NCBI GenBank assembly: GCA_947452415.1 | Contig: CANGCT010000016.1 | Coordinates: 1-38,418, forward strand | DNA: 38,418 nucleotides | Direction: 5' to 3' | From: Flavobacteriaceae bacterium | GTDB lineage: Bacteria > Bacteroidota > Bacteroidia > Flavobacteriales > Flavobacteriaceae | Part shown: positions 10,681 through 34,408 of the stretch, piece after piece | Numbering within the stretch: position 1 is the first letter of the stretch | Layout: each line of letters opens with the position of its first letter | Position numbers and translations under genes: made by a program | Notes under the pieces: generated by a model | The model's database searches: none | What the model was told of the DNA's origin: nothing | The model's input: only the letters and a program-made list of their open reading frames with translations

Positions 10681-10702
10681 ACAGTTAGGTGGGATTTGTG
10701 TA

Positions 10703-10720
10703 ACTTATAAATTTATAAGT
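10703..10720. promoter_or_regulatory. perfect 18-bp palindrome, candidate operator
   Basis: ACTTATAAATTTATAAGT, 69 bp upstream of the 10790 ORF. Confidence 0.4.
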
Positions 10721-10789
10721 ATAACTTACTTTCCTTCATTTATTCGCAAATTTGACTTAACAATAATGATTAATCAAATTTAAAGAAAA

Positions 10790-11095
10790 ATGAAAAAATT
10801 CACCCTTTACACAATGCTAATGATTGCATCATTAACATTTATTCCGAACCAAATTACAGCTGCAGTAAAAAAACCAATTACAACTACAGAGGTTCCTAAA
10901 GAAGTTAAAGTATTGCTTTTAAGACTAGACGAAATCAAAGCAATGGACAAATCCGAATTATCTTCTATTGAAAAAAAAACACTTCGTAAAGAAGTACGCA
11001 CTATTAAATCTACATTAAAATCAACAGGAAACGGAGTATATTTATCCGTTGGAGCTATAATTATAATAATACTTCTATTGATACTTTTATTATAA
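10790..11095 (+). CDS. small exported protein with C-terminal TM tail, hypothetical (101 aa)
   Basis: Signal-peptide-like N-terminus (MKKFTLYTMLMIASLTFIPNQITAA) and C-terminal YLSVGAIIIIILLLILLL. Confidence 0.65.
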   Translation: MKKFTLYTMLMIASLTFIPNQITAAVKKPITTTEVPKEVKVLLLRLDEIKAMDKSELSSIEKKTLRKEVRTIKSTLKSTGNGVYLSVGAIIIIILLLILLL

Positions 11096-25204: not shown

Positions 25205-25211
25205 AATTAAG

Positions 25212-25286
25212 GGTGGATGACCGGGTTCGAACCGGCGACTTCCGGCACCACAAACCAGCGCTCTAACCAGCTGAGCTACAACCACC
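25212..25286 (-). tRNA. tRNA-His(GTG)
   Basis: Reverse strand GGTGGTTGTAGCTCAGCTGGTTAGAGCGCTGGTTTGTGGTGCCGGAAGTCGCCGGTTCGAACCCGGTCATCCACC; anticodon GTG at 25249..25251; extra 5' G pairing with C73, typical of tRNA-His. Confidence 0.92.
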
Positions 25287-29496: not shown

Positions 29497-32400
29497 ATGA
29501 TTCACTTTTTCGGTAACGAAACCACTACTGTATTTGCTGTTCACACGAGCAACAGCGAACTAGCAAAGCAAACACAAAATGAACTTTCTACAGAAACAAT
29601 TTCTAAATTAAATTGGCTTTTTGGTAACGCAACTAAAATAGAGGAATCCGTACTTGCGGATTTTTTTGTTGGTCCTCGAGCTGCAATGGTAACGCCATGG
29701 AGCACTAATGCTGTTGAAATTACTCAAAATATGGGCATTGAGGGCATCACTCGAATAGAAGAATTTGAAAAAGTTGCTGCTGATTTTGTTGCTTTCGATC
29801 CCATGCTTTCGCAAAAATATACTGAATTGCACCAAGATATTTTTACAATAAAAATCCAACCGGAAGCTATTTTAGAAATTGAGGATATTGCCGTTTATAA
29901 CCAACAAGAAGGTTTGTCCTTAAGTACTGACGAAGTAGAATATTTGGAAAATCTATCTAAAAAATTAAATAGAAAACTTACCGATTCGGAAGTGTTTGGA
30001 TTCTCTCAAGTAAATTCGGAACATTGCCGTCATAAGATTTTCAACGGAAAGTTTGTAATTGATGGAGTAGAAAAACCTTATTCATTATTCAAATTAATTA
30101 AAAAAACAGCAGCCGAAAATCCTAACGATATTGTTTCGGCTTACAAAGATAATGTAGCGTTCATTAAAGGGCCAACTGTGGAGCAATTTGCGCCCAACAC
30201 TGCCGATAAGCCTGATTTTTATACCAAAAAACAGTTCGATTCAGTTATTTCATTAAAAGCAGAAACGCATAATTTCCCAACCACCGTAGAGCCTTTTAAT
30301 GGTGCTGCAACAGGTTCAGGGGGGGAAATTCGTGATAGATTGGCTGGTGGTCAAGGTTCATTGCCATTGGCTGGAACTGCAGTTTATATGACTGCCTATT
30401 CTAGATTAGAAGAAAATAGAAATTGGGAGAATGGCATGTCCAAACGAAAATGGTTGTACCAAACACCAATGGATATTTTGATTAAAGCCTCAAATGGTGC
30501 TTCCGATTTTGGAAATAAATTTGGACAACCCTTAATTACGGGTTCTATTTTGACCTTTGAACACGATGAAGACAACCGTAAATTAGGTTACGATAAAGTA
30601 ATCATGCAAGCGGGTGGAATTGGTTACGGAAAAGCATCGCAAGCACAAAAACAAACACCAAAAACCGGAGATAAAATTGTAATTCTTGGTGGTGAAAACT
30701 ATAGAATTGGAATGGGTGGCGCAGCAGTTTCTTCTGCAGATACTGGTGCTTTAGGTTCTGGAATAGAATTAAACGCTATTCAAAGATCTAATCCTGAAAT
30801 GCAAAAACGTGCTGCTAATGCCATTCGTGGCTTGGTAGAAAGTGATAAAAATCCTATTGTTTCTATTCACGATCATGGTGCAGGTGGACATTTGAATTGC
30901 CTATCGGAATTGGTGGAAGAAACCGGTGGTTTAATCGATTTAGATAAATTGCCTGTTGGCGACCCTACCCTATCTGCTAAGGAAATCATCGGAAACGAAA
31001 GTCAAGAACGCATGGGATTGGTTATCGGACAGAAAGATATCGATACCTTGCAATGTATAGCAGATAGAGAGCGTTCACCAATGTACCAAGTTGGTGAAGT
31101 TACAGGCAATCATAGATTTACTTTTGAAAGCAAAACTACTGGAGAGAAACCAATGGATTTTGCCTTAGAAGACCTATTTGGAAGTTCGCCAAAAGTGGTC
31201 ATGAACGACAAAACTGTGGTTAGAAAATATACCGATTTAGAATATACTACCGAAAATATTCCAACTTATTTAGAACAAGTATTACAACTAGAAGCGGTTG
31301 CTTGTAAAGATTGGTTGACTAATAAAGTAGACCGATGTGTGGGTGGAAAAGTTGCCAAACAACAATGTGTTGGACCTTTACAATTGCCATTGAACAATGT
31401 TGGTGTAATGGCTTTGGACTATAACGGAAAAGAAGGAATTGCGACTTCTATAGGACATGCGCCTATTTCGGCATTGATTGATCCAAAAGCTGGTAGTAGA
31501 AATGCTATTGGTGAAGCGTTAACTAATATTGTTTTTGCTCCGTTAAAAGATAATTTGCAAAGTGTTTCACTTTCTGCCAACTGGATGTGGGCCTGTAAAA
31601 ATGAAGGCGAAGATGCTCGATTGTATGAAGCAGTTCAGGCGAGTTCGGACTTTGCTATCGAATTGGGAATCAATATTCCAACAGGGAAAGATTCACTTTC
31701 AATGAAACAAAAATATCCAAATGACGAAGTGATTGCTCCAGGAACGGTTATTATTTCTGCAGTAGGAAATTGTTCGAATATTACTAAGGTTGTTGAACCT
31801 GTTTTGCAACGCAATGGTGGTTCGATTTATTATATTAATTTATCGCAAGATGAATTTAAATTAGGTGGAAGTTCGTTTGCACAAACTTTAAATAAAATTG
31901 GAACGGAAACTCCTACTATTAAGGATTCTAACTATTTTAAAAATGCGTTTAATACCATTCAAAATTTAATAAAAGATAGACAAATCCTTGCAGGACATGA
32001 CATAGGAAGTGGTGGATTAATTTCTACTTTATTGGAAATGTGTTTTAGCCCCCTAACCCCCGAAGGGGGAACTACAGCCGTAATAGAGGCTGGAATGAAA
32101 TTGAATTTTGATTGTTTTGAAGAAAAAGATTTAGTTAAGATTTTATTTTCAGAAAATATTGGAGTTGTGTTGCAAGCAAAAGACGATACTACTTTTGAAA
32201 CTGCTTTTCAAGGTTTGGAGATTTTCAAAATTGGAAAAGTGGAAGAAAGTAATTTGTTAGAAGTTGGAAGTTGGAAGTTGGAAGTGAGTAAACACAGAGA
32301 TATTTGGTTTAAAACTTCGTATTTATTAGACCAAAAACAAACCAAAAATAATAAGGCAAAAGAGCGTTTTGATAATTATAAAAATCAAGCTCTACAATAT

Positions 32401-33210
32401 ACATTTCCAAAACACTTTACGGGAATCCTTACTCCCAGCACCTCTCCAAATGGGAAGGAAGCAAGACCTAAAGCAGCAATTATTCGTGAAAAAGGAAGTA
32501 ATAGTGAGCGTGAAATGGCGAATGCTATGTACTTAGCAGGGTTTGATGTGAAAGACGTTCACATGACTGATTTAATTACAGGACGTGAAAATCTAGAAGA
32601 TATTCAGTTTATTGGTGCTGTTGGTGGTTTTTCCAATTCGGATGTTTTGGGTTCAGCTAAAGGTTGGGCTGGAGCATTTTTATATAACGAAAAAGCGAAA
32701 ACTGCTTTACAAAATTTCTTTAAAAGAGAAGATACACTTTCGGTTGGGATTTGTAATGGTTGCCAATTGTTCATGGAATTAGAATTGGTTAATCCAGAGC
32801 ATGTAGTTCACGGGAAAATGCTGCATAACGACTCGCACAAACACGAAAGTATTTTTACATCGGTGAAAGTACAAGAGAACAATTCGGTGATGTTATCGTC
32901 ATTGGCAGGAACTACACTTGGTGTTTGGGTTTCGCATGGGGAAGGAAAATTTAAGTTACCTTATGAAGAAAGTAACTATAACATTGTAGCCAAATATAGT
33001 TATGATAGCTATCCTGCAAACCCTAATGGATCGGATTATAATACAGCTATGTTATGTGACGCAACAGGCCGCCATCTAGTAATGATGCCACATATTGAAC
33101 GTTCCACTTTTCCTTGGAACTGGGCTTATTATCCTAGTGATAAGAAAGACGAGGTTTCCCCATGGATAGAAGCGTTTGTAAATGCAAGACTTTGGGTGGA
33201 AAAACAGTAA
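29497..33210 (+). CDS. purL: phosphoribosylformylglycinamidine synthase
   Basis: FSQVNSEHCRHKIFNG, KAETHNFPTTVEPFNGAATGSGGEIRD, C-terminal glutaminase SVGICNGCQLFMEL and MPHIERS. Confidence 0.97.
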   Translation: MIHFFGNETTTVFAVHTSNSELAKQTQNELSTETISKLNWLFGNATKIEESVLADFFVGPRAAMVTPWSTNAVEITQNMGIEGITRIEEFEKVAADFVAFDPMLSQKYTELHQDIFTIKIQPEAILEIEDIAVYNQQEGLSLSTDEVEYLENLSKKLNRKLTDSEVFGFSQVNSEHCRHKIFNGKFVIDGVEKPYSLFKLIKKTAAENPNDIVSAYKDNVAFIKGPTVEQFAPNTADKPDFYTKKQFDSVISLKAETHNFPTTVEPFNGAATGSGGEIRDRLAGGQGSLPLAGTAVYMTAYSRLEENRNWENGMSKRKWLYQTPMDILIKASNGASDFGNKFGQPLITGSILTFEHDEDNRKLGYDKVIMQAGGIGYGKASQAQKQTPKTGDKIVILGGENYRIGMGGAAVSSADTGALGSGIELNAIQRSNPEMQKRAANAIRGLVESDKNPIVSIHDHGAGGHLNCLSELVEETGGLIDLDKLPVGDPTLSAKEIIGNESQERMGLVIGQKDIDTLQCIADRERSPMYQVGEVTGNHRFTFESKTTGEKPMDFALEDLFGSSPKVVMNDKTVVRKYTDLEYTTENIPTYLEQVLQLEAVACKDWLTNKVDRCVGGKVAKQQCVGPLQLPLNNVGVMALDYNGKEGIATSIGHAPISALIDPKAGSRNAIGEALTNIVFAPLKDNLQSVSLSANWMWACKNEGEDARLYEAVQASSDFAIELGINIPTGKDSLSMKQKYPNDEVIAPGTVIISAVGNCSNITKVVEPVLQRNGGSIYYINLSQDEFKLGGSSFAQTLNKIGTETPTIKDSNYFKNAFNTIQNLIKDRQILAGHDIGSGGLISTLLEMCFSPLTPEGGTTAVIEAGMKLNFDCFEEKDLVKILFSENIGVVLQAKDDTTFETAFQGLEIFKIGKVEESNLLEVGSWKLEVSKHRDIWFKTSYLLDQKQTKNNKAKERFDNYKNQALQYTFPKHFTGILTPSTSPNGKEARPKAAIIREKGSNSEREMANAMYLAGFDVKDVHMTDLITGRENLEDIQFIGAVGGFSNSDVLGSAKGWAGAFLYNEKAKTALQNFFKREDTLSVGICNGCQLFMELELVNPEHVVHGKMLHNDSHKHESIFTSVKVQENNSVMLSSLAGTTLGVWVSHGEGKFKLPYEESNYNIVAKYSYDSYPANPNGSDYNTAMLCDATGRHLVMMPHIERSTFPWNWAYYPSDKKDEVSPWIEAFVNARLWVEKQ

Positions 33211-33442: not shown

Positions 33443-33474
33443 AAAAAAAGCACAGGAAGATGAACTTCCTGTGC
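33443..33474 (-). terminator. intrinsic terminator (10-bp stem, 5-nt loop, T7)
   Basis: Stem arms 33450-33459 and 33465-33474; A tract 33443-33449 gives the U tract on the minus strand. Confidence 0.85.
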
Positions 33475-33600
33475 ATGTAATTGACTCTTACTTGTATTCG
33501 TAGTCTTCCGTAAACTCTACGTTGCCCATATAACCAAGTCAATTTATTGTAATTACTTTACCTATTTTATAAATTATGAATTAGTAAACAAATAACTTGA
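33450..33600 (-). ncRNA. candidate small RNA or tiny-ORF transcript ending in a strong terminator
   Basis: Terminator GCACAGGAAG-TTCAT-CTTCCTGTGC-TTTTTTT on the minus strand; outer stem AATTGACT/AGTCAATT (33479-33486 / 33537-33544) encloses ATG..TAA MGNVEFTEDYEYK (33488..33529). The 5' end is uncertain. Confidence 0.4.
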
Positions 33601-33701
33601 TTTCTTTAGTACAAATTTGCGCGATTTTCTATTGAAAAATATTATAACATTTTTAGAAAAATTTATATAAATCACATGTTTTCAATTTCGGTTTGTAACA
33701 A

Positions 33702-33732
33702 AAAAAAAACACTATAAATAGTGTTTTTAATA
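33702..33732 (-). terminator. intrinsic terminator of the PTP/sulfatase operon
   Basis: AAAAACACTATAAATAGTGTTTTT with a long A tract on the plus strand (oligo-U on minus). Confidence 0.75.
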
Positions 33733-33820: not shown

Positions 33821-34408
33821 TTATTTTTTGGTAATGGCTAATTCTTTTCGGCTTTTGTAGGCTTTTAAATATTCTCCTTTAGGTTTTCCATCGTCAAAAG
33901 AACTAAATGCAAATGGAAATGCAGCTTTATGCCGTGCATCTTCATTAGAGAATCCTTCATATTCAATTCGGTAAATTGCAGAATACATTTGCGCTCTACC
34001 TATACCATGATAACAATGAATTAGAACTGGATAATTGTCTTTGTTATCCATAATATTAAAGAAAATATCTAGATTCTTTTGATTGGGCACTTGATCTGAA
34101 CCATCGTTAAAATAATTAACCCCAGGAATTTTTGCAATTGCTTCTTTCTCGGCAGTTAACTCGGCAGGAACTTCTGGATTGTTTACATCATCACCAGTAC
34201 CTGGAAAACGTAAATCTATAATAGATTTAATGTGGTATTTGTTTACATAACTTTCAATTTCATCGGGAGGAATAGTGCCACTTTTGTATACTTTACCTTC
34301 AGTAATGGTCATGAAATTATGATTAATATGACGATCGTAAATATATTTTCCAGCAATAACTAATACAAATAATATAAGTGCTGCAACAATTTTCTTTTTA
34401 ATACTCAT
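33821..34408 (-). CDS. membrane-anchored tyrosine/dual-specificity phosphatase family protein
   Basis: HCYHGIGRAQMYSAIYR (HCxxGxxR P-loop); N-terminal TM anchor. Confidence 0.83.
   Translation of the reverse strand: MSIKKKIVAALILFVLVIAGKYIYDRHINHNFMTITEGKVYKSGTIPPDEIESYVNKYHIKSIIDLRFPGTGDDVNNPEVPAELTAEKEAIAKIPGVNYFNDGSDQVPNQKNLDIFFNIMDNKDNYPVLIHCYHGIGRAQMYSAIYRIEYEGFSNEDARHKAAFPFAFSSFDDGKPKGEYLKAYKSRKELAITKK

Follow-up and report, generated by a model that had tools for sequence, protein, structure and literature searches.

A conserved hairpin RNA family in Flavobacterium and a candidate stress-regulated small RNA that may derive from the 3' end of a CsbD-like mRNA

Here, we show by homology searches, covariation analysis and comparison of genomic contexts that the window (the whole 38,418-nt stretch of flavobacterial DNA that was analysed) carries on its minus strand a 68-nt hairpin (33546-33479) followed by an intrinsic terminator (33474-33443), which together, to judge from sequence, are a copy of a real, previously undescribed RNA family. 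Most likely, with a probability that we put at about 0.58, the window copy belongs to an autonomous stress-regulated RNA of approximately 160 nt that acts in trans and comes from the mRNA 3'UTR of a CsbD-like gene since lost; we infer its transcription, its regulation by an AraC protein, its action in trans and its partner from the comparisons presented below. The features are listed in Table 1.

Results

A rare RNA family of one genus

We compared 26 copies of the hairpin RNA in 25 genomes, one of which (G176) holds two. When 100 relatives were searched with the region by BLASTN, G039 gave the only convincing homologue, the other matches being AT-rich chance. The first search model, a sequence-only model built from the window and G039 copies, detected 16 strong copies, spread over 15 of 400 genomes of the genus, and a structure model of the RNA recovered an identical set of copies; its additional match in G366 lies inside a coding sequence. 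The weak R1 matches that were inspected (E above 8e-4) were judged to be coding or chance, and two weak R2 matches outside the genus (L105 and L106) are chance judging from their context. Scanning about 85,000 species genomes with a pattern brought up 24 true copies, which lie without exception in Flavobacterium (F. tibetense, F. cheniae, F. lacus and F. odoriferum among the named carriers) or in uncultured Flavobacteriaceae or Bacteroidetes assemblies, and added 10 copies from further species genomes to the 16 found by the models. A pattern match in a member of the Bdellovibrionales (L089) is not homologous to the RNA, and the viral contigs searched gave 0 matches. Only a minority of the genus Flavobacterium carries the RNA. 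Flavo-1 is a structured RNA of flavobacteria. In a scan of the region, no family of Rfam 15 scores at its gathering threshold, and the comparison with relaxed thresholds gave chance matches only, Flavo-1 not among them.

Table 1. Features of the RNA locus and related sites (positions are those of the window).
Feature	Position	Strand	Remarks
Putative promoter and operator	33610..33673	-	Same layout in 20 aligned copies, with and without the CsbD-like ORF
Operator direct repeats, 21 bp apart	GATTTATATAA 33673-33663; TATAATA 33646-33640	-	
-7 box CAAATTTG	33619-33612	-	Conserved across relatives
RNA leader	33547..33606	-	Poorly conserved; predicted transcription start near 33606, from the -7 box position
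Conserved hairpin core, 68 nt	33479..33546	-	84.6 bits in R2; covariation
P1 helix	33543-33537/33486-33480	-	Part of hairpin core
P2 helix, UUAUGUG/CAYGUAA	33533-33527/33494-33488	-	Covariation; between closing and inner stems
Internal loop	33526-33522/33498-33495	-	9 of 9 columns invariant in 24 distinct sequences
P3 helix	33521-33517/33503-33499	-	Part of hairpin core
Apical loop	33516-33504	-	Variable; part of hairpin core
13-codon ORF MGNVEFTEDYEYK	33488..33529	-	Judged not to be a gene
Intrinsic terminator of the RNA	33443..33474	-	10-bp stem, 5-nt loop, T7
Terminator of upstream sulfatase/phosphatase operon	33700..33727	-	AACACTAT..ATAGTGTT, then T-run
DSP-type phosphatase (PTP-NADK-like) gene, upstream, end of preceding operon	33821..34408	-	Pfam PF22741
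purL, other flank of the intergenic stretch	29497-33210	+	
Second operator/promoter site	10693..10756	+	3 mismatches to pattern; precedes 101-aa ORF
101-aa small-protein ORF	10790-11095	+	Downstream of second operator site
tRNA-His (GTG)	25211-25285	-	Ordinary

Three helices around an invariant internal loop

The folding energy of the segment 33585-33443, -33.5 kcal/mol, is lower than that of all 200 dinucleotide shuffles (-20.8 +/- 3.1; z -4.05). The original prediction had proposed two stems, an 8-bp closing stem AATTGACT/AGTCAATT, whose pairing is exact, and an inner GTAG/CTAC pairing, which belongs to a 5-bp stem CGTAG/CTACG; both are present, but a third covarying helix between them, P2, had been missed. 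Across 24 distinct cores the three helices are paired in 89.9% of cells, six pairs show changes on both sides, and the covariation score is reached by 0 of 500 shuffles and exceeds that of all slid versions too. Covariation therefore backs a structure of three helices with an internal loop of 9 invariant nucleotides. The best of this evidence comes from P2 and P3, P1 being weaker, with one pair that is non-standard in half of the sequences; RNAalifold alone retains P3 and the inner part of P2. The internal-loop columns GGCAA and AAUA are invariant, and since 10 of the 26 copies came from a pattern demanding parts of this loop, their invariance is unbiased only for the 16 model-found copies, in which it holds as well. 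The apical loop and the P1/P2 junction are variable. Single-sequence folds of six copies agree except for a shifted inner stem in one, and the G039 copy folded alone takes a different fold.

An intrinsic terminator follows the RNA in all 26 copies. In the window it was expected to be a second, strong terminator, and it is indeed the strongest minus-strand site in the region (33474-33450 followed by 7 T; 6 of its 10 pairs are GC), where terminator-like sites number 8 against 3.6 +/- 1.9 in shuffles. The preceding operon ends, as had also been proposed, at a terminator of its own, and G176, G107, G291 and others have a counterpart hairpin in this position.

A 13-codon ORF within the hairpin

The hairpin encloses a 13-codon ORF, which lies exactly where it had been placed, and the RNA had accordingly been presented as either a small RNA or a micropeptide mRNA. 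In the window and a handful of its close relatives the frame is open, and most changes fall in the final codon, as a coding function would have it. Over the family, by contrast, it is not conserved: it is open for at least 12 codons in 10 of 26 copies and meets a stop inside the first 9 codons in the remaining 16, the codon homologous to the ATG of the window is ATG in 11 copies and GTG in 15, and nucleotide changes track RNA pairing. We take these observations to refute the micropeptide, and a message encoding MGNVEFTEDYEYK is very improbable. What stands of the two proposals is the autonomous RNA, for which promoter, operator, terminator, covariation and conservation without a codirectional downstream gene all speak.

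Promoter and operator

A layout of TGTGATTTATGTAA, 16 nt, TGTAAYA, 20 nt and CANNTTTGTA is common to ORF-bearing and ORF-less copies, with 21 bp between the two TGTAA repeats of the operator; a 21-bp repeat spacing is typical of AraC-type operators. This layout, conserved in both architectures, supports a promoter belonging to the RNA itself. The promoter originally assigned to 33589-33596 is not conserved, the conserved elements being the -7 box and operator repeats listed in Table 1, which reach up to 33673. Because the conserved -7 box places the start further upstream, the predicted transcript runs from about 33606 to 33443 and measures approximately 160 nt rather than the 110-140 nt first proposed. 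Its leader is hardly alignable among the closest relatives, and the matching interval is occupied in relatives by a CsbD-like ORF: the distance from promoter to core is 47-81 nt in the six ORF-less copies measured versus approximately 270 nt in ORF-bearing ones.

Sites matching the operator pattern number 3 in the window genome and 2, 1, 8 and 3 in four relatives, against 0 for reversed-pattern controls in the five genomes. The three in the window genome lie at the RNA promoter, before a DUF5670 gene (contig C54) and at 10693-10756, and an additional similar site precedes a Dps-like gene. The site at 10693-10756 recurs in G144 ahead of the orthologue of the gene that it precedes here, and G176 has a near-identical one; the 101-aa protein encoded behind the window site is uncharacterised and has a signal-like stretch at the N-terminus and a hydrophobic one at the C-terminus. 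Overall, the operator type precedes a cupin-AraC operon and Dps-like, DUF5670 and OMP-YtxH stress genes. An AraC-family gene neighbours many copies of the RNA, relatives of that gene are found elsewhere in the window genome, and we infer that such an AraC relative regulates the operator.

The Dps-like, Usp, DUF5670, OMP and YtxH genes that usually stand beside the RNA are here on contig C54 (L163, 200-2828), in a stretch with two operator-type promoters. Over 9 nt, the 5' arm and loop of the terminator (AGGAAGTTC, 33470-33462) are complementary to the 5' leader of the gene for the Dps-like protein (L163 461-469), a match that is within chance.

Copies with and without the CsbD-like ORF

In most genomes the promoter is predicted to drive a CsbD-like stress gene and the RNA follows directly behind, its core mostly starting at or just past the stop codon of an ORF of 58-74 aa. 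A Pfam scan of the encoded protein itself gave no match, and its assignment to CsbD rests on a relative to which it is 38% identical over 56 aa and which does match the family (PF05532, E 6.6e-13). The ORF is missing in the window and in G039, one copy of G176 (G176a), G144, G107, G102, G221, L095, L098 and L103, where the same promoter region is retained upstream of the RNA. Of the named species, F. lacus alone belongs to this ORF-less type. The RNA thus lies in the 3'UTR of a protein gene in ORF-bearing relatives but not in the window, and no relative of the CsbD-like protein was detectable elsewhere in the window genome.

The ORF-less state requires three changes on a GH130 tree (G107, L095 and G221) and two on an acyl-CoA-synthetase tree (G039 and the window clade), forced by well-supported branches, so that the ORF appears to have been lost repeatedly, in about five lineages. 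In G107 and L095 a remnant of the ORF's 3' end, a few tens of nucleotides long, stands just before the core, which at least there argues for loss rather than gain. In the window clade a duplication may also be involved, given that G176 has both forms. The two copies in G176 (L065; 7697-7766 and 12317-12380) lie 4.6 kb apart in one stress cluster, one of them ORF-less and the other behind a CsbD-like ORF. The 3' end codons of the CsbD-like ORF in L074 and others (KGQPTT, GGGCAACCTA) resemble the GGGCAACTTAG of the core, a likeness that could reflect an internal duplication or chance.

Downstream context and selection

In 17 genomes a GH130-glycosyltransferase operon follows codirectionally, the GH130 start codon lying approximately 50-60 nt past the core and roughly 15-25 nt past the terminator, which leaves no room for a promoter. 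GH130 is still downstream in three of the five ORF losses. In the window genome (G000), G144, G102, L098 and L103 the next downstream gene is convergent, and no codirectional gene follows. The core is nevertheless identical to that of the window at 63-67 of 68 positions in five relatives, whereas in the adjacent phosphatase gene, the yardstick of divergence (33821-34408; G176, G144 and G102), identity at third codon positions is 54-72%. This comparison indicates that the orphan core of the window clade is under purifying selection.

Discussion

What does the hairpin do once the gene in front of it has gone? Promoter and RNA persist after loss of the gene, which suggests that the RNA itself does a job, and the core is conserved where it has no codirectional neighbour, whereas an inert remnant should decay, which favours an RNA acting in trans. 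We propose that a promoter with an AraC-type operator of two direct repeats 21 bp apart would transcribe the RNA, that its own intrinsic terminator would end it, and that the functional part would be the long hairpin with the invariant internal loop just ahead of this terminator. The RNA would go back to the 3'UTR of the mRNA of a CsbD-like stress gene, whose coding part would then have been lost in the lineage of the window, leaving the stress promoter to make the RNA alone. Under stress the RNA would act in trans, most likely through a protein or another RNA that recognises the internal-loop hairpin. Against this proposal speak the position of the most conserved nucleotides, in the internal loop and not in an exposed seed, which is unusual for a base-pairing sRNA, the weaker P1 and the small share of the genus that carries the RNA. 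On sequence, the locus has what is looked for in an sRNA gene: a conserved promoter layout, its own terminator, no conserved coding potential and a conserved secondary structure.

The main rival, because elsewhere the RNA precedes GH130 with no space for another promoter, is a cis-acting attenuator, in which the hairpin, by sensing a protein or ligand, would set how often transcription passes the terminator into the GH130 phosphorylase/glycosyltransferase operon, the window copy being a leftover leader. The arrangement in the 17 genomes and the persistence of GH130 after three of the five losses are in keeping with it, as is the invariant internal loop between covarying helices, which resembles a binding pocket. 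A leftover leader should decay, though, and in the five genomes with a convergent neighbour the core has not; the folds inspected showed no pairing that overlaps the terminator, core and terminator forming separate hairpins in the minimum-free-energy fold. As an account of the window copy we consider the attenuator unlikely. Attenuation and action in trans are not mutually exclusive, and we tentatively entertain, as a reading that is less likely than not, that the 68-nt hairpin is a dedicated module (internal loop GGCAA/AAUA) for binding a protein or ligand, which works as a cis attenuator before GH130 in some species and in trans, within a free stress-induced RNA, in others. Evolution would then have switched repeatedly between cis and trans through deletion of the CsbD-like ORF.

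The start of the core at or just past the stop codon in most ORF-bearing copies, always with a terminator behind it, would also suit a passive element with a part in stabilising or processing the CsbD-like mRNA at its 3' end and with no action in trans. The ORF-less copies would then be dying remnants, which is difficult to reconcile with the persistence of promoter, operator and core in several lineages and with the strong constraint on the orphan core; nor does a stability role give an obvious need for an invariant 9-nt internal loop. This explanation seems improbable to us. Chance or decaying intergenic DNA might be thought of for an RNA confined to a minority of one genus, yet the family copies, covariation, terminators, shared promoter, operator controls and core constraint contradict it, and conservation effectively excludes this reading.

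The trans-acting stress RNA that we favour shares with 3'UTR-derived bacterial sRNAs, of which a cyanobacterial 3'-end-derived sRNA is an example (PMC8136909), that a structured RNA stands at an mRNA 3' end and stops at the intrinsic terminator of the gene. It differs from such sRNAs in that some lineages have apparently lost the ORF and kept promoter and RNA, and in that conservation centres on a hairpin whose internal loop is invariant and which has no known partner protein. Searches of the literature for an sRNA described as arising through ORF loss found nothing usable. Rfp18 of Flavobacterium psychrophilum is described as widely conserved in the genus, with at least three stem-loops and an action on protease mRNAs (PMC9723704). 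Like the Rfp sRNAs, the RNA described here would be an independent Flavobacterium RNA with its own promoter and terminator, the transcript in our case being predicted; unlike Rfp18, in a comparison based on the published description, it is rare in the genus. None of the matches of the species-wide pattern scan was titled F. psychrophilum. CsbD-like stress genes (PF05532) are matched by the ORF-bearing form, which is the message for a CsbD relative, whereas the window form is without such an ORF.

In conclusion, the comparisons point to a possible stress regulon of the Bacteroidota whose operator can be identified and whose effectors may include an RNA; few stress RNAs have been characterised in this phylum. 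How new bacterial small RNAs arise is not yet settled, and the steps would here be visible side by side in one genus: an mRNA with a structured 3'UTR, a promoter and RNA with an ORF remnant between them, and a promoter and RNA only, under measurable selection.
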